Assembly (NCBI GenBank): GCA_902810765.1
Contig: CADDYR010000001.1
Span: forward strand, 1 to 53,525
Direction: 5' to 3'
DNA: 53,525 bases
Origin: Chloroflexota bacterium
GTDB lineage: Bacteria > Chloroflexota > Chloroflexia > Thermobaculales > Thermobaculaceae
The position numbers and the translations under genes were made by a program. Below the pieces are notes generated by a model. It had not been told where the DNA came from, made no database searches, and saw nothing but the letters and a program-made list of their open reading frames with translations. Positions 2,926 through 39,822 of the stretch are shown piece by piece. Position 1 is the first letter of the stretch. Each line of letters opens with the position of its first letter.

Positions 2926-3002
2926 GCGCCAGTAGCTCAGTTGGACAGAGCGGCTGCCTTCTAAGCAGCGGGTCGGGGGTTCGAGTCCCTCCTGGCGTGC
3001 CA
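2926..3002 (+). tRNA. tRNA-Arg (anticodon TCT)
   Basis: A full cloverleaf of 77 nt with encoded CCA. The acceptor arm GCGCCAG pairs with CTGGCGT, the D arm is GCTC/GAGC, the anticodon stem is GCTGC/GCAGC with loop CTTCTAA (anticodon TCT), and the T arm is GGGGG/CCCTC around TTCGAGT. It reads AGA codons. It stands at the border between core genes and the defence island, so its 3' half is a candidate integration site. I found no second copy of its 3' end in the window. Confidence 0.95.
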
Positions 3003-3392: not shown

Positions 3393-3827
3393 TCAATCGT
3401 TGGCGAGGCATCGCTCCCAGACTATCAGAGCCTGCCTATGGCCACCCTCCGTCTCATTGTGTTGAAACCCAATGCGCTGGTAGAAGGCATTGGCCTCGAG
3501 GCCATCAGGGCATTTCAAACGAATCTGCCTGCACCCAGCCCCCGCGGCGCGCCTGCCCACCTCCTCGACCAGCGCTCGCCCTAGCCCCTTTCGCCGCTCA
3601 CTCTCGGCTACCACGAGGTGGTAAATAGTGACGATCCCATCCCGTCGTTGGTAGTACTGGCAGAAGCCCAGGATATCCTCGCCCTGCACGATCGCGAGCA
3701 CCTCTTCACGCTCGATGGAGCGAAGCAGCGCGGTGCGATGCACAAAGCCCAAATACCTTCTGTTACCGTCCGCAAGGGCTTTGAGAGCGGCCAGATGCTC
3801 GAGGGTCGCCACCAGGTACTTAGCCAC
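3393..3827 (-). CDS. GNAT family N-acetyltransferase, last gene of the defence operon
   Basis: A 144-residue single-domain GNAT protein. The acetyl-CoA-binding motif A is visible as VVAESERRKGLGRALVEEVG (Arg/Gln-x-x-Gly-x-Gly/Ala-type loop), preceded by the IYHLVV beta strand and followed by LKCPDGLEANAFYQRIGF, the usual motif B ending. It overlaps the upstream ATPase gene by 8 bases, so it is co-transcribed and translationally coupled with the operon. The substrate is not evident; it could modify a small molecule, a base or a protein. Its position at the 3' end of a DpdA-containing operon makes a role in nucleobase tailoring or toxicity conceivable, but this is speculation. Confidence 0.8.
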   Translation of the reverse strand: MAKYLVATLEHLAALKALADGNRRYLGFVHRTALLRSIEREEVLAIVQGEDILGFCQYYQRRDGIVTIYHLVVAESERRKGLGRALVEEVGRRAAGAGCRQIRLKCPDGLEANAFYQRIGFQHNETEGGHRQALIVWERCLAND

Positions 3828-6800
3828 CGCTACGTGACTCGCGCACCTTTACGTACACGGCCACCCAGCCCTTCCCATACAGCCCCTCCAGGTCGTGCCA
3901 GACACCCTCACTTCCCGAGGCTGACCGCACTGCCTGCAGTAGCTGTCCCAAATCGACCGAGTCGCCGTCCATCTGGATGCCCTGCAGCGCTTCCAGCAAT
4001 TGGGTCTCGCTGGAAGTGAGCTGGACCTCACCCACGGCTCTATCTATCACATCGAACCCGGTCTTGAATGGGGGCAGTGACGTCAAGGGACCACTCAGGC
4101 GGTTCAGAAGGCACACCAGCGCCCCGGACTCACTTGCGTCGGCAATGACCGATCGATCGGCGGCTCTCCCTCTCAGCTCATCAAGCTCGCGGGACACTGC
4201 CTCCACTTCCACCAGCAATGCCTCGGTGTCGCCTCTCAGCCCAGTGTGCGAGCCGGCCACGTACGCGAGGTCTGGAGAGACGAGAATCTGACGCAGGCGC
4301 TCCATCCATCTCTCCAGCTGCTCCCGTACTCGGGTTATAGTTCTGAGGATATCCTCTGACACCTCGCGTGTCAGCAGTTCAGTCGAGCTGGCGGGGCTAG
4401 CTGGGTTGTACTCAGCGCTGAAGGCCAAGTCGAGCGGACGCTTGAGGTACTCGTGCAGCAGCTCAGCGTAGCGCTGCTTGAGCTGGTCGAACGCCTGCTG
4501 CTTCGCCACCTGGCTCTCGTGAACCATCGACTCGAGGCGCTCGACCTCGCCCTCCCAGCTCTGTGAGCTCACGAGTGCCGCAAGCTTCCGGCTGCTCAGC
4601 TCCCCGGAGATCCGTGCGCCGAGGGCCGTAAGCGGAGCCGTGTCCTCGTTCAGCCTCTCCACCTCCCTTGAGAGCGCCGACAAGCGGCCGAGAGCACGTC
4701 GAGCGCGCACCAGCTGGATGCACTGAGTCTCCGTGGCGTTCGCGTTTGCGCGAAGCTGCGTGGCCACCTTGCTGAGATTCCGCGAGCGCTCCAGCCCCTC
4801 TCGGAGCTGCGCGGGCCCCAGCTCGCCCCGGAGCTCGGCAAGGGCGTCGAGCGCCGCATTGCGAAGGTCCGACTGCTCGCTCCGCAGCCTCTCGGCCTCC
4901 GCCAGCAGCTGCTTGCGGGCAGTCTCGAGGTGGGGCCCGAAGAACTCTCGCGGCACCGGTTCCGACAGCTTGTAATTGGCCACCGGGTCCGGCAGCCGTA
5001 GCTCCGCCAGGGCGCGAATCTCCTCCCGCAGCTCGGCGGCACGGGCCTCCATGAACTCGTCGAGCCGCTTCCCGTACTGTCGCAGTGTGCTGCGCAGTCG
5101 ATGAATCACCGCCGCGTCCAGCTGCTCCGGGCGCTCTCGGAGCTGCCGCTGCATCTTCCGCGTGTTCTCGGCCTGGCTGCGCAGCATGAGGTCATCCGGA
5201 TAGGCGGCCAGCAGAGGGTTCAGCCGCTCTAGGTGCGCCTCTATCTGCTCCCGGAGCACGTTGAGCGGCACCTCGGCCGTCGGCACCTCCTGAATCTCGG
5301 TCCTGCCGCTAACGGTCTCGGCAAGCTCGCGCCGTTCGAGGAGGTCAATGACAGCGTCGATCTCCGCTGACCTATAGCCCTGTGCGTACGCTACCTCGTA
5401 CAGTCTCCGAATAGGCAGCACGTGCACCTCGAGCTCCTGCCCCAGGTGACGCACGCGCCGTGGCTCGCCCCCGGCCATCAGCTCCATGAACTGCGTCTCG
5501 AGCGGGTGCAGCGTGAACTTGACGGTCCCAACCCCCTGTCCACGGAAGGGCACCTCCTCGTGAATCAGGTCGGGAAACGTACTAATGAAGGAGTCGAGGC
5601 CGGTGTTGGTCCGGTGGAAGAGCTCGGCCACGTCGCGCTTCGTGCCCTCGTAGCCCTCCTTGCCCTGCTTCTCCTCTCTGCTCTGTAGGTGGTCCAGCGC
5701 CAGGTAGTAGTCCTTGAGCGCGAGCTGCCAGCCCTTCTGAAGCATGAGCGTCCGGTACGTAGGGAAGCGCAGCTCGCACGCCCGGCGGAAGGCCTGCTCC
5801 ACGATGCGCTCGCGCGCCGCGTTCAGCCCCTGCCCCAGCTCGGCGCTGAGCAGCTCCTCCAGCGCGTGGTCGAACAGGAGCGGCTCGAACACCAGCTCGA
5901 CCTCGCGGTCCATGTCCTTCGGGATGAGGTGCTGCTCGCGCTTCTCCTCGAGATACTGATGCAGGCCCAGCATCATGAACGGCGTGACCTTCCAGGGGCT
6001 CATCACAGGCTGGAGCTGCGCTTTGAGGTCGCTGTAGAACTCGTCGGAGCTGCGGTGAAAGAAGTTGAGGCGGAGCCGGACCACGCCATCGCTTCTCACC
6101 TCGATGCCACCCGGCAGGTCACGACGCTCCCGGTCCTCCATGTCCAGATGCCGCTCCAGCGACACGTCGAAGACCACGTCGGCATCTGGTCCTCCCTTCG
6201 ACTGCTCCGTGTCGCGGGCGAGCCGGACGAGCACACGGCGGTCGGGATACCGCTTCGCCGTAGAGTTGAAGCTCCCCTCGAGGAGCACTCCCGCGCTCTG
6301 GTCCCGCCGTCGCTCCAGCCGCTCCAGGACCTTCCATTGAGGGGAGGGGAACAGCCGCGCGACCACGAGGTCGAGCAAGCCCTGCTCGGCCCGCTGGAAC
6401 GCCCGGTCGGACTGCTCGACGTAGTTACGGCTGAACTCACGGAGGGTCTGCTGCAGCCAGTCGGAGGGACGCGCATTCGCGGGCTCCAGTCCGAGCAGCG
6501 TGTAGCCGCGGGGCACGGGATTGCCCTGGTCGTCGCGGCCTCCGCCCAGCTCGATGACGACCTCGCCCCTGCGCAGGCGGATCAGCTCGTCGGCCTCCCG
6601 CCAAAGCCCCGCCGCGTGGAGCACATCCTCCGAGGCGCCGTAGGTGGGGAAGGCTCCGAGCAGCTTCACGAGCTCGCGCCCCCTCGGAAGGGCGGCTGCG
6701 GCCGGATCGCCAAGGTGACCCTGCACCACCTGCTGCAGCTTGCCGTCCCCGTCGAACGCAATCTCATTCTGGAGGAAGCCGTCCACCACCCCGACAGGTC

Positions 6801-7860
6801 CAAGAGGCTCAACCTGAGGGCAATCAAGATAGCGCTGCGCCATGTGCTTGAAGCCTGCGATCACGGTTCTTGGCCCGCTCGCGAGGTCGTCCCGCGCCGC
6901 TATCTCCCCGAGGCTGGCCAGCCCCTCCGCCGTGACGACCCGCTGCTCCTCCGCCTCGAAGTCGAACTCTCGCGCCAGCTGCTGCCAGAGGCGCGCCGCG
7001 AAGTGCCGGTCGTAGATGCTGCGCAGGTCGAGCGCGAGGCGGTCCATCTTGAGGCGCTGCACGAGGTCGCCACGCTGGTCGTTGATGACGCCGAGCTCCT
7101 TGGAGGGGATGCTGAATATGAGCCCGACCTTCAGCACGCCCTTGCGCGTGACCATGCCCTCCACGATGTTGTGAAGCGGAGCGATAGGATCCTCGCGGCC
7201 CGCTTTGATGGAGGGCTCGACGTACTGCTGCACCTCATCGGGAAAGAGCACCAGCCCGTCGAAGCCCGCCTGCTGGGCGAGCGCGCTGACGCGGGAGAAG
7301 AACTCGAGGTAGTCCTTCGAGGTGAGCTTGAGGGTGTATCTGCCCTCGGCAAAGAGCTGTCGAAGGCGCTCGAGCATGACCGCATCTCCCCCGGCGTCGC
7401 TCTCTATGCTCCGGTCGGTCGCCGCGTGGTAGATCTGCTCCAGCTCCCCGACGCAGCCCGGTACCGAGCGACTTAGCTCGTAGCGCGCCCAGCCGTACGT
7501 GGCCCGAATGAGGTCGCTGAGCTCGCCCAGCTGGAAGGGGGGCACGGCCAGCAGGTTGGCCTGGCGGCAGCGCTGCCACATGTACAGCGCCGTGCTCGTC
7601 TTGCCGTACCCAAAGTCTGCCGTGATGTAGCCCTTCGGCGCGGCTGCATTCTTCACGAGGGTGATGAGCCTCTGCTCATACTCCGAGATAGATACCTCGT
7701 CCTCGGTCGAGCCGCTTGCACGGCCGAATGGCACGTACGAGCGCACGTGTCGTGTGAAGCTCTGATCCATCATCTCGGGAGCCTCGAGCAGCCGGTCTGC
7801 CGTCGGCGTACCGACCACCGGCTCCTTGTCGAGCACTACTCGCAAACCCTCGAGTGCCAT
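3820..7860 (-). CDS. Large P-loop ATPase with coiled-coil tail (DpdH- or BrxC/PglY-like)
   Basis: A 1346-residue cytoplasmic protein. A P-loop (ADFGYGKTST, residues ~81-90) and a Walker B strand ending in Asp-Glu (LVLFPDEVQQY, residues ~203-213) mark an N-terminal AAA+/STAND-type ATPase. The pattern 'hhhh-x-DE-x-x-x-Y' resembles BREX BrxC/PglY and other giant defence ATPases. The middle is globular. From about residue 850 the sequence is rich in Glu/Arg/Leu heptads and probably forms long coiled coils. It follows the 273-aa gene by 14 bases and overlaps the GNAT gene by 8. In known Dpd islands a large ATPase (DpdH) occupies a similar place, so I suspect equivalence but cannot verify it. A mechano-ATPase role in restriction is inferred. 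Confidence 0.7.
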   Translation of the reverse strand: MALEGLRVVLDKEPVVGTPTADRLLEAPEMMDQSFTRHVRSYVPFGRASGSTEDEVSISEYEQRLITLVKNAAAPKGYITADFGYGKTSTALYMWQRCRQANLLAVPPFQLGELSDLIRATYGWARYELSRSVPGCVGELEQIYHAATDRSIESDAGGDAVMLERLRQLFAEGRYTLKLTSKDYLEFFSRVSALAQQAGFDGLVLFPDEVQQYVEPSIKAGREDPIAPLHNIVEGMVTRKGVLKVGLIFSIPSKELGVINDQRGDLVQRLKMDRLALDLRSIYDRHFAARLWQQLAREFDFEAEEQRVVTAEGLASLGEIAARDDLASGPRTVIAGFKHMAQRYLDCPQVEPLGPVGVVDGFLQNEIAFDGDGKLQQVVQGHLGDPAAAALPRGRELVKLLGAFPTYGASEDVLHAAGLWREADELIRLRRGEVVIELGGGRDDQGNPVPRGYTLLGLEPANARPSDWLQQTLREFSRNYVEQSDRAFQRAEQGLLDLVVARLFPSPQWKVLERLERRRDQSAGVLLEGSFNSTAKRYPDRRVLVRLARDTEQSKGGPDADVVFDVSLERHLDMEDRERRDLPGGIEVRSDGVVRLRLNFFHRSSDEFYSDLKAQLQPVMSPWKVTPFMMLGLHQYLEEKREQHLIPKDMDREVELVFEPLLFDHALEELLSAELGQGLNAARERIVEQAFRRACELRFPTYRTLMLQKGWQLALKDYYLALDHLQSREEKQGKEGYEGTKRDVAELFHRTNTGLDSFISTFPDLIHEEVPFRGQGVGTVKFTLHPLETQFMELMAGGEPRRVRHLGQELEVHVLPIRRLYEVAYAQGYRSAEIDAVIDLLERRELAETVSGRTEIQEVPTAEVPLNVLREQIEAHLERLNPLLAAYPDDLMLRSQAENTRKMQRQLRERPEQLDAAVIHRLRSTLRQYGKRLDEFMEARAAELREEIRALAELRLPDPVANYKLSEPVPREFFGPHLETARKQLLAEAERLRSEQSDLRNAALDALAELRGELGPAQLREGLERSRNLSKVATQLRANANATETQCIQLVRARRALGRLSALSREVERLNEDTAPLTALGARISGELSSRKLAALVSSQSWEGEVERLESMVHESQVAKQQAFDQLKQRYAELLHEYLKRPLDLAFSAEYNPASPASSTELLTREVSEDILRTITRVREQLERWMERLRQILVSPDLAYVAGSHTGLRGDTEALLVEVEAVSRELDELRGRAADRSVIADASESGALVCLLNRLSGPLTSLPPFKTGFDVIDRAVGEVQLTSSETQLLEALQGIQMDGDSVDLGQLLQAVRSASGSEGVWHDLEGLYGKGWVAVYVKVRESRSGG

Positions 7861-7874
7861 CCTTCAGTTACCTC

Positions 7875-8696
7875 CTAATCCAAGAGCAGCTCGACCGTCG
7901 GGTACTCCCGAAGGCGGATGAAGCGGCCGTAGGAGCCGGTGCGCGTGCCGGCTTCAGCAAGGTGGGGAAACGCCGCTAGCGCTTGATCCAGCCGACGGTC
8001 CAGGACGGACGGCTCGAGCAGGCACAGGCGAGCAACGGCCTCTCGACGCTCAGGCGTCAGCAAGAGATCAGTGTTGAGCTGGGCGCTGCTCTCGCGTGCT
8101 ACGTGGCCGACCGCCAGCAGCACCAGTTCTCGGGAGCAGAGGTCGCGGCGATGAAAGCAGTCGTTCTCCAGCACGGGCGGGGTGAGGGGCTCCAGCCACT
8201 TGCGTAGGCCCAGCACGCTCTTGGTGCTGAACGCGGGCCGAGCACCCTCAAACTTCGCCTCTGCGAGCGAGAGCACATCCGCCACCAACTGCTTCCGATT
8301 AGCAGCATCGAGCACGATCTGTCCTTCTGCCCACAGGTGGTCACAGAACACTCGGTATGCCCAGGACACTCCGAGGTCAGGTCTGGCCGACCAGGCAGAG
8401 TACAGGAGGAAGTGCAGCACATCGGCGGCCACATCCGGCCTGAGCCGGTAGAGCGACTGCCCGAGCACCGAAAGCTTTATGCCACTGGCTCCATCCTCGA
8501 GAATCCCCAGCAGTCGCGCCATTGATAGCGGCTCCGTCCGATCCGTGAACGCGTACCGCTCGCGGATCGCGCTCAAGAGCTCCGCGTACGACCCGAACGC
8601 CTCGCGGCCACTCTGCGACATTGCCTCGACGATGGTCCGCATATGCTCGCTGCTGCGGACTGGGTCGAGGTGCAGCGTTACGTGTTCCGTAGCCAT
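7875..8696 (-). CDS. Conserved-looking protein of unknown function, defence operon
   Basis: I do not recognise this 273-residue protein. It is soluble and mostly helical, with no signal peptide or membrane segment. Notable parts are an N-terminal His-containing stretch (ATEHVTLHLDP), a central aromatic-rich segment (HFLLYSAWSARPDLGVSWAY) and a C-terminal region with several Arg/Leu helices ending in VELLLD. The start overlaps the end of the TGT-like gene by 19 bases and the ATPase gene follows after 14 bases, so the product is made with both and is a candidate partner of the ATPase. By position it could correspond to DpdG of Dpd islands; this is a positional guess only. Confidence 0.6.
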   Translation of the reverse strand: MATEHVTLHLDPVRSSEHMRTIVEAMSQSGREAFGSYAELLSAIRERYAFTDRTEPLSMARLLGILEDGASGIKLSVLGQSLYRLRPDVAADVLHFLLYSAWSARPDLGVSWAYRVFCDHLWAEGQIVLDAANRKQLVADVLSLAEAKFEGARPAFSTKSVLGLRKWLEPLTPPVLENDCFHRRDLCSRELVLLAVGHVARESSAQLNTDLLLTPERREAVARLCLLEPSVLDRRLDQALAAFPHLAEAGTRTGSYGRFIRLREYPTVELLLD

Positions 8697-9760
8697 CGCA
8701 CCCCTTCCTGTTGATACTTGGGAGAGCCGCCCTCGTAGATAGCATCAATCCGCTCGTACTGCCCGTCGTTGAGTATCTGGACGGACTCGTGCAGTGAGAT
8801 GAGGTTATGAGCCGCCCGGTGCCACTTGCTCTCGGCCAAACGCTCCCAGCTCTCGCAGTACGGACACGAGTGCCCCGTGAGCACCTTGAGCTCCTGCAAG
8901 TCCTCCCAGAGGATGCCTCGCTGCAACTCGGACTCGGCGCTCCGGTAAGTAATATTGTACGCTCTTTGAAACGGCAGCGTGACCTGCCCGAAGCCGGCGG
9001 CTTTCAGCCACGCCGAGGAGTCGAAGCTCGTCGCCCCGAGTCCCGCGATCATAGCGACGAGCGCCGGCACGCCGAGTCCGAAGAAGTGGACTGGCACGCC
9101 GTGCTTGCCCGCCTCCCTTACAACCCAACTCGCGACCTTCGTGGAGTCAGCGTGTGCCAGATTCACCCCGTCCTGCTTGCCGAACGTGCCGAAGCTGCCG
9201 AAACCGACCGTGCGCGCGCCCATTGCCAGGTACTCCGAGAGACAGTAGTCGGCCTGCTCGAGGGTGTGGCCGTGCACTACAGGCATGGCTCGCTCCTGCA
9301 GCTTCGAGGGCAGCTCCTCGAAGAACATCCGGCTCCATTGGGCTGTCTGTCGAACCTTCGTCCAGACCTGCTCAGGCGTCTCGCGAGAGGTCGGGACGTT
9401 GTCCGGCAGCACGTACACGTCTGCCCAGGGCTGTTCCTGGTACAGCCGCAGCAGTCGCATGTACAACTCCTCATATGCGAGCTTCCCGACCTGGACGTAG
9501 TAGCCGCCGCTGTCGAAGCACACGGTCGCCCCGCGCGTCGCGCTGAGGTCCCTGATGAAGGACAGAGTTGGCGGGCCGAGCTGTAGAGGCGTGACCAGCA
9601 GGCGACCCAGCGGGTCCGTCGCGAACGGGCCAGCGTCCTCGAGCAGGCGGAGCATTCGCCGGAACACGCTCGGGCCATCCGTCACCGCCGCGTAGTAGCG
9701 CAAGGGAGTGGCACCGGAAGGTCTGGTGGTAGTAGAGCCGTCGGTAACAGTCTCGGTCAA
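8678..9760 (-). CDS. TGT/DpdA-like transglycosylase (putative DNA 7-deazaguanine insertion)
   Basis: A 360-residue protein of the tRNA-guanine transglycosylase fold, closest in motif style to archaeal TGT and DpdA. DpdA exchanges guanine in DNA for preQ0. Asp83 in CFDSGGYYV matches the TGT base-binding Asp. Asp247 in ATSFDSSAWLKAAGFG sits where the nucleophilic Asp lies and lacks the bacterial FDC-x-x-PTR tRNA-binding motif. The zinc site reads His297-x-Cys299-x2-Cys302 with His318 downstream, so the first Cys of the usual CxCxxC is replaced by His. Its start overlaps the sigma-like gene (ATGA). A DNA target is inferred from operon company (helicases, ATPase); an RNA target is not excluded. 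Confidence 0.8.
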   Translation of the reverse strand: MTETVTDGSTTTRPSGATPLRYYAAVTDGPSVFRRMLRLLEDAGPFATDPLGRLLVTPLQLGPPTLSFIRDLSATRGATVCFDSGGYYVQVGKLAYEELYMRLLRLYQEQPWADVYVLPDNVPTSRETPEQVWTKVRQTAQWSRMFFEELPSKLQERAMPVVHGHTLEQADYCLSEYLAMGARTVGFGSFGTFGKQDGVNLAHADSTKVASWVVREAGKHGVPVHFFGLGVPALVAMIAGLGATSFDSSAWLKAAGFGQVTLPFQRAYNITYRSAESELQRGILWEDLQELKVLTGHSCPYCESWERLAESKWHRAAHNLISLHESVQILNDGQYERIDAIYEGGSPKYQQEGVRWLRNT

Positions 9761-11556
9761 GAAACTTTGCCTTCTACTTGCGTAGTCTGCGGAGTCTTAT
9801 ATGACTCGGGTAGAACGTTCACGCGGTACCACTCATTGGTCAAGGTCTTTACTCGATCCGCCAACGCCTCGGCATCACTCCGGGTCAGATTCAGGTCAGT
9901 GAGCGTGCGGTCCAAGGTTCCGGGTCTGCGCTCCGGCTGCAGGAACATCGCGGCGACGGCTAGCCTTTCTCTCCCTTCCGGGAACGAGGGCAACACTTTC
10001 GATACGAGGGCAGGCGAGAGTACAGGTAGGCGGACGCGGTCATCCCGAGGTGATCGCTCAATCAGCCCGGACAGTACTCGGCTCCAACCCGGACGGCGTA
10101 GCTTCTTGATGGCCTTGTCCTCGATCTGGCGGATGCGCTCCCTCGTGACTCCAAGGCGCGCACCGACCTCCTCCAACGTGTACTCACGCTCTCTCACCAA
10201 CCCGAACCGTAGCTCCAGCACCTCACGCTCCCGCGGTGAGAGCATGGAGAGTACAGCCTCAATCGCCTTTCTAAATGCAAGGAGGTCGAGCGCCTTGGAG
10301 ATGTCCTCGCCCTCAGCAGCCGGCATCCCCGTGGCGGCTTGCGCAAACTGGTCCGAGGAATCCAGCGAGACAACCGGCTGAGCTACCTGCAACAGGTGCT
10401 CCACGCGAGGTAGCGCCCAACCGAGGCTGCTTGCGAGCTGCAGAGCGGAAGGTTCGTGTCCCGTTCGGTCTTTGAGTTGCTGACGTGCGGCATCGAGGGC
10501 CCGGACCTCCTCCCACACGTGAACAGGCAAGCGGATCGACCGCGAGTCGTCCGCAAGAGACCGAGTCACCTTCTGCCACACCCAGTTCGCAGCATATCTC
10601 ATGAACCGGGGAGTTTTCCCGACGTCGTACTTCACGACCGCCCGGAACAGGCCCTCCACACCCTCCTGAAACAGGTCCTCGAGGTCGAGGTCCCGCCCGA
10701 GGTACGGTCGGATCACCCTCGCGACCAGCCACAGGTTGTCCAGCACGAGCGCCTCTCGCGCCGCTAGAGCCTCAGGTGACCAGAACCTTGTGTCCTCACC
10801 TACGCGCTCGACCTCGGCTGCCGTGATCGCGCAGTAGTGCTCCTCCTCCGCACGAGCAAGTACATGGCGCGCCCAGGCGTCAACCAGAAGCTTGCGCTCG
10901 GTGCTCGACAAGTGAACGCCCTCATAGCCGAGCCGCCGGAGCGCCCATGCCTGATCCAGCTCACCCCGAAGGAGACTTCCAAAGCGACGCTTCGCAATCT
11001 CGATGGTCGCGAGCGGCCTGGTCTTACCTGGACTGCCAACACAGCTCGGCAGCACCGGAACGCCGCTGCGGCGCACGAAGTCGTACACCTCGCGCAGGTG
11101 AGGGTCGCTGTTCTGCAGCGCCTGCACGGAGTACGCCAGGTTGCCAAGCGTGAGCCTGCCGTTGCGCTCGATGGCCATCTGTAGGCACGGCAGCACGACC
11201 CAGCGCAATCGCTGCCCAAGCTCCAGGTAGCCCAGGGGTTGCTCGCGGTAGTCCAACCCCTGCGGCTCGTCGTCTTCCTGGATGTCGAGGTCGTCCTCCT
11301 CGAGAATCTCCTCTATCTCATACTCATCATCGCGTACCAGGTCATCGGACTCCTCACGCAGCTCGTGGGGAGTATCATTCCAGTCGATCTGTGGCGGCTC
11401 GTCGATCTCGACGGTTGGCAGGACGGGCTCGGAAGTGGCTGGTGCCGGGTTCGTGAGAGCTGCTGGCGTCGCCGTCTGAGCCTGCGGTGTCGGTACCGCA
11501 TTCGCCGCCACGCGGTCGCCCCAGAGGAAGCTTTCCAGGTCAAAGTCAGCCTGCAT
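9757..11556 (-). CDS. Sigma-70 family protein with extra N-terminal domain, in the defence operon
   Basis: A 599-residue protein with an almost complete group-1/2-like sigma core: region 2 at ~265-340 (DLEDLFQEGVEGLFRAVVKY, then FMRYAANWVWQKVTRSL), region 3 at ~343-400, and region 4 at ~428-488 (LSPREREVLELRFGL, then the helix-turn-helix EEVGARLGVTRERIRQIE). The first ~100 residues are disordered and very acidic (66-100); ~105-260 is an unrecognised helical domain, and ~110 residues follow region 4. A strong AAGGAGGA site precedes the ATG. It is coupled to the TGT-like gene by ATGA. It may direct RNA polymerase to operon promoters, or act as a DNA-melting or recruitment factor; sigma factors are unusual inside defence operons. 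Confidence 0.88.
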   Translation of the reverse strand: MQADFDLESFLWGDRVAANAVPTPQAQTATPAALTNPAPATSEPVLPTVEIDEPPQIDWNDTPHELREESDDLVRDDEYEIEEILEEDDLDIQEDDEPQGLDYREQPLGYLELGQRLRWVVLPCLQMAIERNGRLTLGNLAYSVQALQNSDPHLREVYDFVRRSGVPVLPSCVGSPGKTRPLATIEIAKRRFGSLLRGELDQAWALRRLGYEGVHLSSTERKLLVDAWARHVLARAEEEHYCAITAAEVERVGEDTRFWSPEALAAREALVLDNLWLVARVIRPYLGRDLDLEDLFQEGVEGLFRAVVKYDVGKTPRFMRYAANWVWQKVTRSLADDSRSIRLPVHVWEEVRALDAARQQLKDRTGHEPSALQLASSLGWALPRVEHLLQVAQPVVSLDSSDQFAQAATGMPAAEGEDISKALDLLAFRKAIEAVLSMLSPREREVLELRFGLVREREYTLEEVGARLGVTRERIRQIEDKAIKKLRRPGWSRVLSGLIERSPRDDRVRLPVLSPALVSKVLPSFPEGRERLAVAAMFLQPERRPGTLDRTLTDLNLTRSDAEALADRVKTLTNEWYRVNVLPESYKTPQTTQVEGKVS

Positions 11557-11599
11557 CCATTCCTCCTTCCGCGCCTGCCCGCATTTCAGCTTGGGGGAA

Positions 11600-11612
11600 G
11601 TCTACAATAGAC
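11600..11612. promoter_or_regulatory. Short perfect dyad between SNF2 and sigma-like genes
   Basis: GTCTA-CAA-TAGAC is a perfect 5-bp dyad with a 3-bp centre in the only sizeable gap (60 bp) between the SNF2 and sigma-like genes. It could be an operator or part of an internal promoter for the sigma-like gene, or a chance palindrome. Confidence 0.3.
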
Positions 11613-11616
11613 CTCT

Positions 11617-14600: not shown

Positions 14601-15621
14601 CGAGCGAGGCGGGCACCACGATGACGCACCGTTCGAGGTCTCCCCGAAGGATGAGCTCCTTGATGAAGAGGCCCGTCATGATGGTCTTGCCGGCACCCGG
14701 ATCGTCGGCCAGCAGGAAACGGAGCGGCTGGCGCTGGAGCATCGTCTCGTACACCGCGGAGATCTGGTGAGGCAGTGGCTCAATCCACGACACCGAGACC
14801 GCGAGCTGAGGGTCGAACAGGTGGGCCAGCCGGATGCGCTCCGCCTCGAGCGCGAGGCGACAGAGGGCGCCATCGGCCGTGTACGTCCAAGCACCACCAC
14901 CCTCGACGACTTCGAGCGAGGGCTCGCTCGAGCGATACAGCACGCGGGTTCCAGGCTTACCCGTGACTACGTCCTCGTAGGTCAGCCTTACCGCCGTACC
15001 CCCGATCATCCTGGCGCTCAGGACTCGTACGGGTCCGTCCTGGCTCACGCCGAGGACGACAGCGCCCTCGGTCAGGTCCTCGAGCCGCGCTCCCGCGGCC
15101 GAGCTCGTCCTCAGCGGCTTGGTCAAAGCAGGAAACTCCTCGAGCACTTCCAGGTCAAACGGTTGGTAGATCCGCGAGCGCTCGCGGAGGCGGGACAGGC
15201 TCTCGACGTGCACGTAGCCGTCCCGGGGGTCGAGCTTGAGCCCAGCGCCACTCTCCGCAACGCGGTAGTTGTGGATGAGGTGGGCGACCGCGTGGGCGTA
15301 CAGCCCGACCTGCTCCCCCACGGGCAGGCGGGAGTCGAGCGCGAGCAGCCAAGAATCGGGCGGCTCCCCGTGGGGCACGAGCGCGGCATCGAACCTACCC
15401 GCGGGCGGAACCCGATACGCGGGGCAGGCTCCGGGGCCCAGGGCACGCGACAGGCTCGCAGCGTCGAGGCCATCCACCAGGAGCAGCTTGGCAGGCAGCA
15501 AGGCGTGGCCGAGAGAGCGCGCCCGCTCGCGGCAGCGGCGGTGGAGAGCCTGCACGCCGCCGGAACGTGGAGTCCAGGACGCGAGCAGCGAGAGCAGCCG
15601 CTCCACGGTGTCAGCTGCCAT
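11617..15621 (-). CDS. SNF2-type helicase with IrrE-like N-terminus and DUF3883-type C-terminus (DpdE/DrmD-like)
   Basis: A 1334-residue SF2 helicase of the SNF2/RapA class. N-terminal ~75-170 contains a zincin-like segment (YAHAVAHLIHNY, ~108-119) that recurs in the adjacent HsdR. Motif I is LLADDPGAGKT, motif II VVVDEAHKMS, motif III LMLTATPHRGK; the C-terminal helicase lobe has TDASGEGINLQRA and QRFGRIHRFGQ. The last ~100 residues carry GYDLES and RFVEVKGRA, the D...ExK pattern of DUF3883/PD-(D/E)XK-like domains. The start at ATG 15621 lies 5 bases after the preceding stop; the open frame extends further upstream only as a shadow of that gene. SNF2 proteins occur in Dpd (DpdE) and DISARM (DrmD); which is nearer needs a profile search. 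Confidence 0.85.
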   Translation of the reverse strand: MAADTVERLLSLLASWTPRSGGVQALHRRCRERARSLGHALLPAKLLLVDGLDAASLSRALGPGACPAYRVPPAGRFDAALVPHGEPPDSWLLALDSRLPVGEQVGLYAHAVAHLIHNYRVAESGAGLKLDPRDGYVHVESLSRLRERSRIYQPFDLEVLEEFPALTKPLRTSSAAGARLEDLTEGAVVLGVSQDGPVRVLSARMIGGTAVRLTYEDVVTGKPGTRVLYRSSEPSLEVVEGGGAWTYTADGALCRLALEAERIRLAHLFDPQLAVSVSWIEPLPHQISAVYETMLQRQPLRFLLADDPGAGKTIMTGLFIKELILRGDLERCVIVVPASLEVQWQDELLEKFGLHFDIVGRHEIESAAVNVFAERNLVIARIDLLKQEEQLERLSQVDWDLVVVDEAHKMSATMQPGTNKVRETARYKLGKLLSARSRHFLMLTATPHRGKEIDFQMFMQLLDPDRFEVRFQEKLQPQDVQDVMRRMMKEDLVDFGGCRLFPERRAYTVGYALSPLELQLYEEMTEYVRQEMNRADLIAAEGGQGRQRRTVVGFALTTLQRRLASSPEAIYQSLARRRRRLERTLEEERRKRLEKLDLASGYGRVEPDELETDLEESPEDEAEEIVDRASASRTIAELEFELEQLARLEALAERVRASGEDSKWQEMRTLLEETPEMYKADGSRRKLVVFTEHRDTLHYLAERIRDYLGRDDAVVTIHGGMSRDARRDAQNEFLHREESLVLVATDASGEGINLQRAHLMVNYDLPWNPNRLEQRFGRIHRFGQKEVCHNWNLLAYNTREGEVYDRLLAKLEEARKALGDTVFDVLGEVFTDRPLRELMLDAIRYGDDPAQRARLEEVVANLADLEEYRRLLEEYRLVREIMDPAQVTELAEERDRGATNRLVPHFIASFFAEAFTRLGGSITEREPGRYRISNVPPEIRRRAQRFGRSCTLPTSYTRVCFDKELAEVEGLTEAKFIGPGHPLLEATLGLVLERWGGLMTEGAVLVDPSATGEPRLLFMVRTDVTDDDGDTLSSELHFVELGAEGKAVRAGAAPYLDYRPLEPDEVHEAQALASAEWVRRVDLEAVQDYAIVHLAEEQLERVRQEREERARKVLQAVDDRLSQLVLHWDKRADELDRQYREGTVPKVAVDNARDKAAELTERRKWRLEALKREVIVQCPPPQVLAGMLVVPADRLGKDHQEPDPEALQRLELVAMREVMLREREAGYEPRDVSGERRGYDLESAHRDTGKSRFVEVKGRAVGVDTITLTRNEQLVARNKRADYVLAIVEVDGDRVVSYQAIPDPLGGLPSDGMPFGMVSSTFSIQQLQASRVEG

Positions 15622-15626
15622 CGTCT

Positions 15627-17072
15627 CTATCTCGGGCCCCCTGCTTCCAGCCGTCGGAGCAGCTCCTGGAGCCTCTGGCGGACGCTGGCCGACGTCGTGG
15701 CCAGGTCGGGCGCTGACTCCACCTCCGCGCGACGGATGACTCGCCTCAGCCTGCGCCGACCGCCCTCCGGATCGGGGGAAGAGTACCAGCGGCCGTCCCC
15801 GTGTACGAAGCCGCCGGCGTAGAGGGCCGAGCGGATGGAGCCGCGATGCACCGTGTGTCCCTGCCGCTCGCGAACGGACTCGACGACCTCCCGGAACGTA
15901 AGGCCATCGGGCGCGCCAGAAAGGATGGCCTGGATGGACTGCCGGTAGGATTCGCCAAGGCCGCCGCGGAGCTCCGCCAGCACCTCCACGTCGACCAGTC
16001 GCGTCTCCTCCTCCTGCACGGCCTCGTCCCGACCGATGATGGAGAAGACGAGGACGTCCGGCGCCCACTGCACGCGGAGCAGGTCGCCCGCCTCGCACCA
16101 GGCGAGCTTATCCGCGAGGTCGGCGCCGTAGAGCAGGTTCGCGCTCCGGTCGAGCCAGACCCACAGCCGGTCGTTATCGGCGTACCATCGCCCGCGCAGC
16201 GCGGTAACGTCCCCCTCGCCCGGCCGGCGCGATGGGTATATCGAGCGCACGGCCTTCGGGACTCGGAGGACGCCCTCATTGATGTGTGTAGTGCGCAGGG
16301 GCACGGTCCAGGCGGCCACTTGCTTGGCGTTGGGACCTTCGGTTTCGATGCGCGCGACCGGCGGCTCCGGCTGCTCCACGTACACGACCTCGACATCCTG
16401 CGAGTCTCTCCCGATGGCGAGCACCCGGAAGCGCGACGGGCGAGCGTGCTCGGGGACGGTATGAGCCAGCGCCCAGTAGTCGTATCCCACCCGACGGATC
16501 CCATCCCAGCTCGCGAGCCACGCCTGCACCAGCCGCCAATCCTCGTCGTTCCCTCCATCCCAGCCCAGCGACTCCAGCATCCCCGATATCTGTCGGACGG
16601 TCAGCGGCTGGGCTCCCTCCTCGAGCCACAGCGTCGTGAGCTCGGCCGCCAGCTCGTCCAGGCGCGACCGCTCCTCGGGCGCGAGTTCGACCTCGACCTC
16701 GCGGTCGGCAGATCGGAGCGTGCCGTTCCGATCCATCTGGAAGCGAGGGTCCACGGGACAGAACACGTAGTGGACTCCGTCCTCGGCCTCGAGCTCGGCA
16801 AGCTTGGCGTCTACATCCCGGCCGTCCCACGTCCCCTGATTGAGCGCGTCGAGCAGGCGATCGTTCCCAAGCACCTGCTCCGCGAGCCTCCACTGTCGAG
16901 GATGCTTTGCATCCCGCTCTCGCGCCAGCACAAATCGTGAGTCGACGTGAATGGGGAGCTCGATACCCAGCTCCCAGACAGCGCTGAGCGCCTCATCCTC
17001 CGTGAACGTCCGGCGCGTAGGCCGCAGACGCTCCACTGCCTCCTCGAGCAGGTGTCCAACCTCGGTCTCCAT
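15627..17072 (-). CDS. Unknown protein with predicted winged-helix ends, defence operon
   Basis: A 481-residue soluble protein that I cannot assign. The N-terminal ~120 residues look like a winged helix (TFTEDEALSAVWELGIEL, then RQWRLAEQVLGNDRLLDAL). A second possible winged helix lies at ~385-440 (GLTFREVVESVRERQGHTVH, GSIRSALYAGGFVH), ending in DGRWYSS. The middle has beta-rich segments (VEVVYVEQPEP, GRWYADNDRLWVWLDRS). Its ATG overlaps the stop of the exonuclease-helicase fusion (TGATG) and the SNF2 gene starts 5 bases after its stop, so it probably works with those two as a DNA-binding or adaptor subunit. Dpd/DISARM counterparts are unknown to me. Confidence 0.6.
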   Translation of the reverse strand: METEVGHLLEEAVERLRPTRRTFTEDEALSAVWELGIELPIHVDSRFVLARERDAKHPRQWRLAEQVLGNDRLLDALNQGTWDGRDVDAKLAELEAEDGVHYVFCPVDPRFQMDRNGTLRSADREVEVELAPEERSRLDELAAELTTLWLEEGAQPLTVRQISGMLESLGWDGGNDEDWRLVQAWLASWDGIRRVGYDYWALAHTVPEHARPSRFRVLAIGRDSQDVEVVYVEQPEPPVARIETEGPNAKQVAAWTVPLRTTHINEGVLRVPKAVRSIYPSRRPGEGDVTALRGRWYADNDRLWVWLDRSANLLYGADLADKLAWCEAGDLLRVQWAPDVLVFSIIGRDEAVQEEETRLVDVEVLAELRGGLGESYRQSIQAILSGAPDGLTFREVVESVRERQGHTVHRGSIRSALYAGGFVHGDGRWYSSPDPEGGRRRLRRVIRRAEVESAPDLATTSASVRQRLQELLRRLEAGGPR

Positions 17073-20000
17073 CACGCCGCCAGCTCCGGGAACTCCGGCA
17101 GCTCGATGCCGCCCGCCAGCGCGTCTCGCCCCTTCTCGGTGAGCCTGACGGCCTGATACGTCTCGTCCCGGTTGCGCATCGGCCTCTCCTCGAGCGCGAG
17201 AAAGCCTGCCTCGATGAGGACCTCGATCGTGCGCCGCAGCCGGTCTCGCGTCGTGGCTCCTTCCAGGACGCCGAAGTGGTCGGAGGCTCGTGCACTCGGA
17301 GTGAGCTGATAGCCGTCACCCACGAGCATATTTACGAACGTGCGGCTGCTGTAGATACGGTTGTGCTGGAGCACCGCCGAGAGCACCGCGAGCCGCGGGT
17401 CCACCTTCAGCGGCTCCCCGTACAGGCGCACGCCCGGGTCCCAGGGCAGCTGCTCGTTCGTGGGGCTGCACAGGTCGCACCGGCCGCAGAGCGGAGCATC
17501 ATCACGGCCCGTGAGGTAGTTGACCAGGAAGGCGCTCCGGCACCGGCTCCCACCGGGCCTCAGTCTCGCGTAGTCGAGCATGTCCTGTAGCCGCTCCTCG
17601 AACATCCCGTAGCGGGCGCCGAACCTGGATTCGAGGTCTTTGACGCGGTCGGGAGTGAGGTCCGCCGGGTCAACCTGGAGCGTGATACCGCGCCGGTACG
17701 GACGGTACAGTACCAGATCGCGCTGGCTCAGGTGAACGAGCAGCGGCTCGAGGCTGCGCGGGTCGAGGCCGGTCTCTCGGTACACCTGAGCCGCGAGGTA
17801 CTTCCGCTGCACGTCGCGTTCGGCGCCTAGGGCGTCGAATAGCAGCCGAGCCGGACCCCGATCTGAGGAGGGCAGCTGCCCCAGAATCTCATCAGGATGC
17901 GCGTTCAGGAGTATGGTGCCCTCGAGGGTACAGTCCGCGCCCCGCTGGAGCAAACCCTCGGCCTCGAATGAGTAGAGGAGCATGCGCCCCTCTGTCGGCT
18001 CCACCCCAGCCAGCTCCGATACCTCGTCGGGGTCACAGAGGATGTAGCCATCGGGGAGTCGAGCCGCGTTGATGTGTTCGGAGTTGACCGACGACAGGGC
18101 CCGAGCGTACTCCGTGAGGACGCTGTTCTGGAGGACGCCCTGCTGCGCTATGAAGCGGAGGGTGCGCTGCGTCTGGGAGTTGTACAGCAGGATGGCGTAA
18201 GCCGGCTTACCATCGCGGCCCGCCCGGCCAGACTCCTGTGTGTAAGCCTCGAGACTCGCCGGGTGGTCATAGTGGAGCACGAAGCGGATCTCGGCCTTGT
18301 CGACGCCCATCCCGAACGCGGTCGTAGCGACGACCACCTCCAGCTCACCCTGCATGAACTGCTCCTGCACCTGGTGGCGCTCGGGCGTGGACATCCCGCC
18401 GTGATACGCCTGTGCCGCGATGTTGTACGCGCGGAGGAGACTGGCCAGCTGTGTCGCTGTCTTGCGCGTGGCGACGTACACAATGCCCGCTCCACCCTGC
18501 TCCTCGTTGCGCACAAGCTGGTGCACGATGCTCGCGGTCAGCTTGTCCCGATCCTCACGCTTTTGAACCTCGTACACCCGGTACATCAGATTGGGGCGAA
18601 CGAAGCTGCCGCTGTAGGTGAACAGCTCGCGCTGTCGGCCCATCCGCAGCTTTTCGACGATTTCCCTCTGTACGGCTTGGGTCGCAGTAGCGGTGAGGGC
18701 CTGAATGGGCAAATCGTCCGGCAGGAGCTGCGCGATCTCCAGAAAGTCGGGGCGGAAGTCGTGCCCCCACGTCGAGATGCAGTGCGCCTCGTCTACGACG
18801 AGCTGAGTCAGTTGGACGCTATCGAGGACGGCCCGGAACCTGGGGTCGCGGAGGCGCTCGGGGGAGACGTACAGGAGCTTGAGACGACCTGCCACAGCGT
18901 CACGCAGCACCTGCTCCTGACTGGCGGCGTCCATTCCGGATACGAGCGCCGCGACGCACTCGAGACCCGGCACCTCGCGCAGCTTCTCGACCTGGTCACG
19001 GATGAGCGCAATGAGCGGGGAGATGACGAGCGTGAGTCCGGGCCGGATGAGCGCGGGCAGCTGGAACGTGCGGCTCTTGCCCGCACCCGTCGGCAGGAGG
19101 GCCAGCACGTCCTTTCCTGCGAGGACCGCCCGCATTATCTCTTCCTGACCGGGGCGGAAGCCCGAGTGCCCCCAGATGGCCTGCTGTACGGTCAGGAGAC
19201 GGGGCCGGGCGACGGAGTCGTAGTCTTCATCCGACAGCACCGGCGTCGGGAGCTGATTCTCCTGAAGGATGCGGGCGATCTCGGCCGATTCCGGCTCGGG
19301 CAGATCCTCCTCGCTGAACGGGAGGCCCATCCACTCCGCCACGTGGCGGAAGAGATCGACATCGGAGTCGTAGCGGACCGTCGGCTCGGGCAGCGAGCGC
19401 AGGACCTCCGCCCGGTACAGTGAGTTGCGCAGCCGCTTGTCGAGGAGGATGACAGCCCCCCGGTCCTCGGGGGAGCGCACCAGGCGACCAAAGCCCTGCT
19501 TGAGCACTATGATCATCTTCGGGAGCAGGTAGTCGTAGAACGGGTTGTGGCCAGCCTGCTCAACCGCCGACATGCGGGCCGCTTCGACGGGGTCCCCGAT
19601 GCTGGGGTACGGCAGCTTCTCGAGGAAGACGTAGGATAGGGACTCGCCCGGCACGTCCACTCCCTCCCAGAGGGAGCGCGAGCCGAGCAGCGAGCTGGCC
19701 GGGGTTTCCCTGAACTCCTGAATCAGTCGCTGCAAGCCACTGCGCCCCTGACACAGCACGGGGAACCCCTCCTCGATGAGGCGGGAGGCGAGCTGCTCGT
19801 ACACGAAGTCGCGCCGGCTGTTGGCCGTGAAGAGCACGAGGGAGCGACCATGAAAGTACGGGATGAAGCGGGCGAGGAGGCCCGCGACGGCCTCCGGGAA
19901 CTTGCGCTTCAGGTCGCTGTCACGTGGAGCGGGCAGGTCGTTGGGCAGCTCGAGGAGCGCAAGCGAGTGGTAGTCGAACGCGTGAGGCAGAGCACACTCG

Positions 20001-22450
20001 ATGAGCCGCTTGTCCGGCGCTTTGTCCGCGATGCGGCCACGCTCCAGACCTATCCTTCCGAGGAAGAACTCGAAGCCCTGGCCGTAGACGGTCAGCGTGG
20101 CGGAGGTGCAGATGCCCGCGTCGAGCCGCGACCAGAGTCCGTCCCAGAGCTTGGGCCCGACGTTCACGGGCACTCCGCGCAGGGCCACCGGCGCTCGTGA
20201 AGGCTCCCCGTCGCGCGATGCCGGTAGCTTGCCCAGCTCGATCATCCGCACGTGCGTTGTTCCCTCAGCAAATGACCAGAACCAGCCATAAGTTTCGTAA
20301 ATGGCCTTGAGGTCCCCGACGACGCGGCGGAGATGTCGGATCACCCTCCTGGCTCGGCGCCCTGCAGCTTCGCTCCCGCGCGGGCCTGCCTCGTTGCCTC
20401 GATGGTGCAGCTGGACCAGGCTGTCAGACAGCCCCTGCAAAGCGCCGCGGAACGTATCCACGGCAGTCCGCAGGTCCGGCCCACCCGCAGCCTGGAACAC
20501 ACCCCGGTCGATCGCGATGCGCACACCGTAGCGATCGAGATCAGCGCGATTGACCACGGTCTTGTTGACTACGTACTTGCGGAGCTGCGTGGCGAGCGCG
20601 TCGAGCGCCCCCGTCACCCGGTCCACGGCCTCACGTACTGCCACGACAGTCTCGTCGTCGCGGTCGAGCCCGAAGGCCGCCCTCGCGTCGGCCAGCAGTC
20701 CTCGTGACCGTGGGGCGACTATTCCGCGCAGCAGCCTGCGCAGCTCCGTCTCCTCCACGCGCTGCTCCAGAGCGTTGGTAGCAGCATCTTCGAGCGTGTG
20801 CGCCTCGTCGAACACCAACCGGGTCGCGAATGGCTCCTCGTCATCCGCGCTTCCGAGGTAGCTGGTCAGCAGGAGCGCGTGATTCACGACGATGATGTCC
20901 GCCCGCTCTGCATTAGCCCGCGCCCGGGTGTAGAACTCCTGCAATGGCCCGGCCGGGGGATCGTCTCTGCCTGAACGAACGGTAGAGAGCATGGCGAACA
21001 CCGCCCCGTCGGCCTCCAGATACTCATCCAGTGAGCGTGGGATATAGGCCAGCTCCTCCAGGTTGCCGTGAGCGCTCTCAGCGGCGAAGCGCACGAGCAG
21101 CCCGAGCGTCCAGGCAGTCGGGCGCAAGAGGTGCGCGGCCTCGAACGCCTCGAGCAGTTCGTCGGCCAGGCGCGCCACCGAGATGTAGTTGGCCCGACCC
21201 TGGAGCTGCGCGTATCTGAGGCCCGGCAGCAGCTCCTGCACGAACGGCAGCTCACGTCTCACGAGCTGGTCCTGAAGCACCTTCGTGTACGTCGAGACCG
21301 CGACGGGCGAGCTGGTGGCCAGGGCGTCCACGGCGGAGGGGATGAGATAGCCGAGGCTCTTGCCGGTACCCGTGCACGCTTCGATGACGCCGTAGCCTCC
21401 GGTTTCGAGCAGGTCGCGAACCTCGCCCGCCATCTGGAGCTGAGCCTCACGCCGGCTGCGGCCCCTCTCCTCCGCGCGCCGGAACACCGCCTCGACCGAC
21501 TCCCGTGAGCTGGCTGCGTGCCTCTCCTCAAGCAGCGGAGTGATGTTCCGCGCTAAGTGGGCGCTGATGGATTGGGCGGATACGATCGCGTGTGGCGGCT
21601 CGAGCAGGTACGACCAGGGGTCACCGGCTCGGCGCAGCAGCTCGTACACCGCCGCGCCGGTCTCGGTATCACGCAGCTCGCGGCCCAGGCCCTGGATGAT
21701 GCTTCCGAGCATCGCGACATCCACCGCCGCGTCGTGAGCACCTGCACGTGCGCATCCGAACCTCTCTGCAAGCGACTCCACGCGGTGCTCGGAAGCAAGC
21801 GGCAGCAGCACGCGGGACAGGGGCAGCGTGTCGAGGACGAGCCACGTGGACGGTAGCGTAATGCCGAGTCGCTGAGAGACCGCCTCAAGGAGCGGACCAT
21901 CGTAGCTGGCGCCGTTGTGCGCGATGACGGGCAGGTCGCCCACGAACGCGAGGAACTGCGGCAGGACCTTCTGAGCACAGCCCGCGCTCGCCACGTCCTC
22001 GTTCGTGATCCTGGTCAGCTCCTCGATCTCGGCGGGAATGGGCCTCGTCGGGCGAACGAGCTCGTCGAAGGTCGCTACGCAGCGCCCGTCTACCCACCGC
22101 TCGGCGGCTATCTGGATGATCTCGTTGCCGGGCAGTCTCGGATCCTGCCCCAATGCTTCCAGGTCGAAGACCACGTAACAGCCCCGCTGCAGGTGGGGAT
22201 ACTCGAGTGTCGGAGTCTGTACCTCATTGGGCTCGGGGTGCTCGATGACAGTGCGGAGCTGCCAGCGTCCGCCAACCTCGCTGAACCGGTGCGGCAGCTC
22301 ACGGAGCACCTGTGCCACGCGCGGCGCAGGTAGCCTCTGGCCGACTTGCCGACTGACCCCCGCGGTGAGGGCCTCGAGAGTCATCCCGTCCGGCTCTGTC
22401 CTGAGCGCCTGCGCCGCGGCTTCCGCCACACGCTGTTGCATCGCGTTCAT
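17072..22450 (-). CDS. Giant fusion: winged helix + DEDDh exonuclease + DinG/XPD helicase + RecQ helicase
   Basis: A 1792-residue, four-part protein. Residues 1-66 look like a winged helix. Residues 92-260 are a DnaQ-type 3'-5' exonuclease with FDLEA (Asp96, Glu98), AHNGASYD (Asp184) and AHDAAVD (His239, Asp244). Residues ~340-1010 are a DinG/XPD helicase with ACTGTGKS (~359-365), DEAH (548-551), [10 protein letters not shown] and [15 protein letters not shown]; the four Fe-S cysteines of DinG/XPD are missing (NYIS at ~421). Residues ~1085-1560 are Rec[34 protein letters not shown], and the zinc Cys set 1637/1655/1658/1661. A winged helix closes the protein. The RBS AGGAG lies 9 bases before the ATG. 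Exo-DinG proteins exist; fusion to RecQ is unusual. Probably DNA resection or degradation. Confidence 0.9.
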
Positions 22451-22454
22451 GCGG

Positions 22455-22640
22455 TCAGCTCTCCTCTGGCAGGTTCAACAGGAGCCGCAGGGTGCGGAAG
22501 AAGTCGTCGCGAGCCGCCCGCACGTCCGCTTCGGGATACTCCTCGCTCGCGGCTGCGCGTATCAGGGCATCCATCAGCGTCTCACCCAGTTCGAGCACCT
22601 CGGCTGCGATCTCCTGCCTTTGGTCTACGGGCGGCCTCAT
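22455..22640 (-). CDS. Small helical protein, probable first gene of the defence operon
   Basis: A 61-residue acidic helical protein beginning [14 protein letters not shown] and ending NLPEES. The frame is open further upstream (to 22778), but that extension is Cys/Pro-rich and unlike protein from this genome, so I prefer the ATG at 22640, preceded by GGAAGAG. It ends 4 bases before the giant exonuclease-helicase gene, which suggests translational coupling. Its function is unknown; a regulator, inhibitor or small subunit is possible. Confidence 0.5.
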
Positions 22641-22797
22641 CAGCTCTTCCACCCAAGAATAGGGACGCAACGAAGGGCAAGAAGCGCAGGCTGCCAGCGT
22701 GAGCAGCCAGGGGGCGATACATGCGGGAAATCGGCATTCCAGCCCCGTGCGGTAGAACGCGCTACATCCACTTTGCAAATGTCCAGAGCAACGTGAA

Positions 22798-25797: not shown

Positions 25798-25811
25798 TCT
25801 CCGTCCTTTCG

Positions 25812-30359: not shown

Positions 30360-30600
30360 CACCCTGCCCTCCTCAGGACCTGCCTCGCGCTCACCCTCAG
30401 CCCGAACCTTGGCACGCCGTCCGCTCCGACAGGCGCATGCGCTGAACCTGACCCAAGTCTACTGCAACACGAGTGTCGAGGGTTAGGTACCGCTCCCGTC
30501 GGGAGTGCAGGGCCGGGAGGCGACGTATCCGCCGCTCTGATGTCCCTGGCAGCGCCCCTTGGTACCCGGATACGAGACACAGTGCATATCGCATAGCCGC

Positions 30601-39652: not shown

Positions 39653-39822
39653 ACCTTCCTCCTGCGGTGAGTATAGCATCGGTTTAGGTAACTCGCGGCC
39701 CATAGGTAACTGAGCTGAGAGCGCTGGAATGGGTGACAAGTTGGGCACTTCTGCTCACGACGAGCCGAATGCCCGACTTTAGACTTAGGGATGACGGACT
39801 CGACAACCAGGAGGAGGCTGAG

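Follow-up and report, generated by a model that had tools for sequence, protein, structure and literature searches.

The locus described here, within a window of 53,525 nucleotides (the whole stretch of DNA analysed), is a composite island of two abutting cassettes, a type I restriction-modification (R-M)-linked cassette A and a TGT-containing module B, with an SNF2-nuclease between them. Module B is a shared mobile part whose partners change from locus to locus and which is not tied to one effector. The reading that we favour, by a little over even confidence, is that module B would be a mobile, swappable self-marking module that inserts a 7-deazaguanine in the cell's own DNA, with unmarked DNA being attacked by a neighbouring helicase-nuclease.

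The source genome (3.98 Mb over 384 contigs) belongs to the same class as Chloroflexus islandicus. From 28904 to 3393 on the minus strand, the genes run in the order HsdR, HsdM, HsdS, U107, DnaQ-DinG-RecQ, U482, SNF2, sigma-70-like, TGT, U273, ATPase, and GNAT. The initial annotation had described nine same-strand genes with overlaps, and the nine ORFs from U107 to GNAT (22778 to 3393, all on the minus strand) are indeed present as described, with four overlapping junctions of 4–19 bp, namely 17075/17072 (4 bp), 9760/9757 (4 bp), 8696/8678 (19 bp), and 3827/3820 (8 bp). Its domain assignments (TGT, SNF2, exonuclease-DinG-RecQ, sigma-70, GNAT, and P-loop ATPase) were also borne out by Pfam matches and, for the ATPase, by a GYGKTS/DE motif. 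The type I R-M genes (28904 to 23117), immediately upstream of the nine ORFs and outside the boundaries drawn at that time, belong to the picture as well. The features of the island are the following:

2926–3002, plus strand: tRNA-Arg (TCT), found by ARAGORN, with core genes beyond it
3393–3827, minus strand: GNAT acetyltransferase of module B (Pfam Acetyltransf_1, 52 bits)
3820–7860, minus strand: BrxC-like P-loop ATPase of module B, 1346 aa (conserved GYGKTS and DE; relative in Haloplanus)
7875–8696, minus strand: U273 of module B, 273 aa, in a constant place between TGT and ATPase
8678–9760, minus strand: TGT-like base-exchange enzyme of module B (Pfam TGT, TGT fold matches, catalytic and zinc residues)
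9757–11556, minus strand: sigma-70-like protein of module B with an N-terminal extension of ~260 aa (Sigma70 regions 2, 3, and 4 above the Pfam cut-off)
11617–15621, minus strand: HmaA-like SNF2 helicase with a C-terminal NOV_C nuclease-like domain (PADLOC HmaA, Pfam NOV_C)
15627–17075, minus strand: U482 of cassette A, 482 aa, located 3' of the DnaQ-DinG-RecQ fusion in three other genomes
17072–22450, minus strand: DnaQ-DinG-RecQ fusion of cassette A (Pfam domains; fusions in G081, G303, and G330)
22455–22778, minus strand: U107, a small ORF with no Pfam or NCBIfam match
23117–24310, minus strand: HsdS-like specificity subunit of cassette A, start approximate (homology to a Methylase_S protein of G330)
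24301–25815, minus strand: HsdM of cassette A (N6_Mtase, 226 bits; HsdM_N)
25812–28904, minus strand: HsdR of cassette A (ResIII, EcoEI_R_C)
29256–30362, minus strand: tyrosine integrase on the far side of the island (Phage_integrase, 105.5 bits)

The locus looks like a mobile defence island, with the tRNA-Arg, likely the island border, and core genes (RNase PH, VTT domain, HAD) on one side and the tyrosine integrase on the other; att repeats for a tRNA-Arg island were sought and none was found. Past the integrase, at 37766–39748 of the window, lies a gene for a 660-aa protein with AAA_22/NB-ARC-type ATPase matches and no PADLOC match.

In cassette A, HsdR and HsdM were confirmed by Pfam and HsdS was recognised by homology alone (25% identity to the G330 protein). 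The fusion joins RNase_T, Helicase_C_2, and DEAD/Helicase_C domains (Pfam), and fusions 54–58% identical to the window copy were found in G081, G303, and G330 (54–56% in G081 and G330); U482 was searched for in 301 genomes of the phylum. In the Chloroflexota genomes G081 and G330, the type I R-M genes are followed by the fusion and U482 in the same order as in the window, with no TGT, sigma, or SNF2 gene behind them, and in G303 the fusion and U482 pair stands at a contig end. Since the pair follows type I R-M genes without a TGT in G081 and G330, it is best assigned to the type I R-M-linked cassette A, and we reject it as part of the TGT system.

The SNF2 protein between the cassettes starts most likely at the ATG at 15621, directly after the U482 stop, contains SNF2, Helicase_C, and NOV_C domains (Pfam; NOV_C with 64.8 bits), and scores 1309 bits against the PADLOC HmaA model; relatives from this family occur in 54 out of 251 genomes. 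It also bears an extra N-terminal domain of ~190 aa, which is 40% identical to the N-terminus of the HsdR of the same island and is covered by none of the listed HmaA relatives. The same N-terminal domain is also present in the HsdR of G081 and G330. The domain common to HsdR and SNF2 is possibly a common docking domain, and our guess is that the SNF2-NOV_C protein is a candidate effector serving either cassette A or module B.

Module B consists of the sigma-70-like, TGT, U273, BrxC-like ATPase, and GNAT genes. When 158 genomes of the class were searched with a profile, five carriers of the module came up, including the window, so module B is rare. Chloroflexus islandicus, Chloroflexales MAG.66, and a Chloroflexaceae MAG each have a TGT relative with genes for U273 and the ATPase behind it, and in G010 (JANXYP010000017.1) the order sigma-TGT-U273-U273' runs up to the contig end. 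When 72,556 plasmids were queried separately with TGT, U273, and ATPase, the same two records were recovered each time with the three genes adjacent, the cyanobacterial Oscillatoria nigro-viridis pOSC7112.01 and the haloarchaeal Haloplanus HW8-1. An IMG/VR contig (L116/L122) carries on one strand a GNAT-TGT fusion, U273, the ATPase, and UvrD-like, DruF-like, and DruL-like proteins. In these searches, a single TGT query matched nothing in the genome or viral contigs and alignment queries did; the phage collection gave no module TGT match. The recurrence of TGT, U273, and ATPase together in other genomes indicates that their association is not due to chance.

The neighbours of this module change. 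Druantia genes adjoin it in five loci (the three Chloroflexales loci, Oscillatoria, and L122), with the neighbouring DruE scoring 1570–1592 bits where tested (C. islandicus, the Chloroflexaceae MAG, and Oscillatoria) and DruF- or DruL-like proteins also present. In Haloplanus, the neighbours are queC, queE, queD, a HerA-type ATPase, a GNAT, and a PD-(D/E)XK protein. Every other complete module B locus lacks DnaQ-DinG-RecQ and U482, and a Pfam scan revealed no obvious nuclease of the module's own. U273 and ATPase occur without a TGT in G374, beside a NERD-kinase protein and a HerA_C-domain protein, and in G362, where a sigma gene is present and the ATPase is shortened; therefore, the U273-ATPase pair is not devoted to the TGT. 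The G374 locus (L035:3571-18998), which we regard as a module relative lacking a TGT, encodes a PglW-like NERD-kinase protein of 1426 aa, a 552-aa protein, and a HerA_C-domain protein of 1854 aa. In C. islandicus, a second ATPase-U273 pair without a TGT adjoins the TGT module (L011:2870-7750); the window ATPase is closer to this TGT-less pair (E 1e-173) than to the TGT-linked ATPase, and MAG.66 holds a remnant similar to the same pair. A locus on the Haloarcula sinaiiensis plasmid pHsi139 (L082:5960-14452) groups queE, queD, an EVE-domain protein, a TGT, and a BREX-type ATPase; it was not counted as a module member, given that its 293-aa protein is no clear U273 and that, in the tree, its TGT does not join those of the module, and we regard it as a related but different TGT defence-like set.

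The window TGT scores 32.8 bits against Pfam TGT (cut-off 26.3), with its homologues beginning at about residue 19 of the ORF. All 50 listed fold matches of its AF2 model (mean pLDDT 74.6) are TGT crystal structures with a probability of 1.00, and phmmer against PDB sequences gave nothing useful. When the module TGTs are aligned with the host's own TGT and those of other bacteria, D83, D120, G188, and D247 are seen to be kept, and also a zinc site, H297-x-C299-xx-C302...H318, in which the first Cys is replaced by His; these match the catalytic, base-recognition, and nucleophile residues established for TGTs. In a tree, seven module TGTs group together (92/80), apart from the housekeeping TGTs (99/98). 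Further divergent TGT-like proteins from Chloroflexota (L018, L008, and L024) fall outside both groups and may be more DNA-modifying TGTs. The host genome encodes QueC, QueF, and a separate housekeeping TGT, and with QueC and QueF, it should have both preQ0 and preQ1 at its disposal.

The ATPase has a conserved P-loop GYGKTS and DE motif in the alignment. Its Haloplanus relative (E 3e-59) scores 27.3 bits against Pfam BrxC_BrxD (cut-off 22.2), whereas the window protein itself reaches 14.5 bits; neither PADLOC nor DUF499 matched the latter. U273 lies always between TGT and ATPase in the module loci, and its AF2 model (pLDDT 88.6) has no meaningful PDB match, so we do not claim it as BrxA; it has no Pfam match, and a profile comparison with DUF4007 gave a probability of 2.9% (P 0.016). 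U273 is possibly a DUF4007/BrxA-like DNA-binding protein. The window GNAT shares 39% identity with the corresponding half of the Oscillatoria fusion and 36–37% with the Chloroflexales GNATs; to the Haloplanus GNAT, its similarity is distant only. Two loci (Oscillatoria and L116/L122) have GNAT-TGT gene fusions and several others have the two genes adjacent, and for this reason the GNAT is likely coupled functionally to the TGT; that it acetylates the preQ1 amine is a guess. The gene for a full sigma-like protein stands before the TGT gene in both the window and G010, and before U273 in G362; sigma region 4 was also recognised (47 bits) within one DruF-like protein linked to Druantia. In the three full proteins, the first W of the region 2.3 WW pair, conserved in the host's other sigmas, is replaced, with the second W and the following Gln kept. 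The plain reading is that the sigma-like protein is a regulator, and it is speculation that it opens DNA for base exchange.

Another IMG/VR contig (3300006054_000001) carries GNAT and TGT genes that overlap by 4 bp and lie immediately upstream of the gene for a DNA polymerase processivity factor (sliding clamp), with a helicase and an exonuclease nearby and no U273 or ATPase within the 15 kb read. The viral TGT frame breaks near the C-terminus, with the zinc motif in another frame, which is either a real break or a sequence error. A viral SAVED-domain protein (L118:3195-3956; Pfam SAVED, 55.5 bits) overlaps the start of the viral GNAT gene, and a stand-alone SAVED of this kind in a virus might soak up cyclic oligonucleotide signals as a decoy or sponge.

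Compared with known systems, Dpd islands also combine a TGT-fold enzyme with helicases and a host preQ0 supply, but the window TGT lies outside the DpdA family: it scores 13.6 bits against NCBIfam DpdA (cut-off 200), and PF23859 has no match in its own genome. The "DpdA-type" label of the initial annotation is thus rejected in its strict sense. A DpdA-model match in G035 is a poor yardstick, as its relatives on plasmids carry annotations of the phosphoadenosine phosphosulfate reductase family and its tree branch is very long. DpdB, DpdC, and DpdK, already reported as missing, have no match among the operon proteins, and the SNF2 and RecQ parts reach 186 and 215 bits against DpdE and DpdF (cut-offs 500 and 550), scores that we read as generic helicase similarity; the proposal that the locus is not one described Dpd subtype therefore stands. 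Hma and the type-1 BREX-related (BR) systems share an HmaA-like SNF2 with a C-terminal nuclease-like domain and a nearby BrxC-like ATPase, but the window lacks the DUF499 ATPase (HmaC) and HmaB, has a TGT in place of the methyltransferase, and has the extra N-terminal domain in its SNF2; the only methyltransferase seen is the HsdM of the type I cassette, not adjacent to SNF2. With Druantia (PADLOC type II/IV models), the likeness is the DruE/DruF/DruL-like genes adjoining module B in the five other loci, and DruE is absent from the best PADLOC matches of the eight scanned operon proteins of the window. The MZA system has a defence-linked sigma-70 protein (MzaA sigma factor, an NCBIfam name), alike in the sigma core alone, and no other MZA component matched. 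Phage DpdA modification (PMC6884629) likewise involves a virus with a TGT homologue among DNA replication genes, but in the viral case described above, the TGT belongs to the module-B family and has a GNAT as its partner.

If module B works in self-marking, its TGT would replace guanine with a 7-deazaguanine from the host queuosine pathway (preQ0 or preQ1) within the cell's own DNA, and the GNAT would probably finish the mark, e.g., through acetylation of the preQ1 aminomethyl group. Binding and scanning of DNA would fall to U273 and the BrxC-like ATPase, which would decide the site of the mark or detect its absence, the sigma-like protein would drive the operon or give promoter-like sequence recognition, and a neighbouring helicase-nuclease would attack unmarked DNA. 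The candidate attackers here would be the HmaA-like SNF2-NOV_C protein and the type I R-M/DnaQ-DinG-RecQ cassette, and elsewhere DruE or the HerA/PD-(D/E)XK proteins. This model draws on the que genes beside the module in Haloplanus and QueC and QueF in the host, on the recurrence of the module in Chloroflexota, in one cyanobacterial and one haloarchaeal plasmid, and in an IMG/VR contig, on the TGT fold with its kept catalytic and zinc residues, and on the GNAT-TGT fusions in two loci together with the viral pair beside a polymerase clamp. A bolder version, to which we give little credence, is that GNAT and TGT make an undescribed N-acylated 7-deazaguanine (e.g., N-acetyl-preQ1) as the self-mark of interchangeable Druantia-, HerA-, and SNF2/type I-linked defences, that a virus has copied this mark as a two-gene shield, and that the sites of exchange are chosen or opened with the help of the sigma-like protein.

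Other explanations have to be weighed against this self-marking model. The TGT substrate could be tRNA, with TGT and GNAT serving, for instance, in an infection-triggered translation switch, since tRNA is the classical substrate of TGTs and aminoacyl-tRNA is acetylated by some GNAT toxins; nevertheless, we think this rather improbable, given that the module partners are DNA helicases, nucleases, and BREX-type ATPases, that the host has a separate housekeeping TGT, and that the viral copy lies among DNA replication genes. The lack of an obvious nuclease in module B would suit a TGT acting as a weapon that excises or exchanges guanines in invading DNA, an idea hard to reconcile with a virus that itself carries the GNAT-TGT pair and with deazaguanine synthesis genes accompanying the module in Haloplanus, and to which we give scant probability. 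Phage DpdA proteins put 7-deazaguanines into phage DNA (PMC6884629), and a part in marking therefore suits the viral GNAT and TGT better than action as a weapon or on tRNA. The tight same-strand packing with overlaps, together with the N-terminal domain common to SNF2 and HsdR as a hint of cross-talk in the island, would favour all nine genes being one new system, as initially annotated; this is very unlikely because the fusion and U482 occur with type I R-M without a TGT and neither of them accompanies module B in any other complete locus. What holds of the annotated gene set is the recurrence of TGT-U273-ATPase together, and also the membership of sigma and GNAT, seen in the sigma gene before the TGT in G010 and in GNATs fused or adjacent to module TGTs; however, the nine genes fall into two separately occurring cassettes.

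Closest in published components are the BREX-Related Capture (BRC) systems, a subset of whose loci was described in January 2026 with GNAT and TGT alongside BrxC-like ATPase components (Rakesh and Krishnan 2026, PMC12839542). GNAT and TGT are shared with the window, whose ATPase may correspond to the BrxC-like (DUF6079) ATPase of BRC and whose U273 is perhaps the BRC DUF4007 protein. The Haloplanus HerA/que locus, which has TGT, U273, and ATPase in common with the window besides its HerA and GNAT, is close to published BRC systems. The window could therefore be a rearranged BRC system that lost HerA and PglZ, a possibility to which we assign a small share. Against it, the article states HerA/FtsK to be universal in BRC, but the scanned window proteins have no HerA/FtsK or PglZ domain; compared with BRC as described there, the window also lacks a separate STAND NTPase, has a sigma-like protein, and adjoins SNF2 and type I R-M genes, and Druantia genes are the commoner neighbours of module B. 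Of the initial claim of a new TGT-centred defence or modification set, it stands that the set is built on a TGT and is not a Dpd subtype, but its novelty is reduced by GNAT, TGT, and BrxC-like ATPase having already appeared together for BRC in that paper. In the literature searched, where subscription journals are little covered, no paper was found with "Druantia" and "transglycosylase" together, and in the same literature, taken without the BRC supplements, we found no description of the sigma component, the viral GNAT and TGT pair, or the HmaA/type I context; overlap with published work is possible on all these points, the Druantia pairing included.

If the self-marking model is true, 7-deazaguanine marking would not belong to Dpd islands as such but would be a module that can be plugged in, with the same TGT-centred set serving Druantia, HerA-type, and SNF2/type I-type machinery. 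It would also provide a testable self-mark for systems with unclear self/non-self discrimination, and the viral GNAT and TGT would represent the corresponding counter-defence and could lead the way to a new DNA base.
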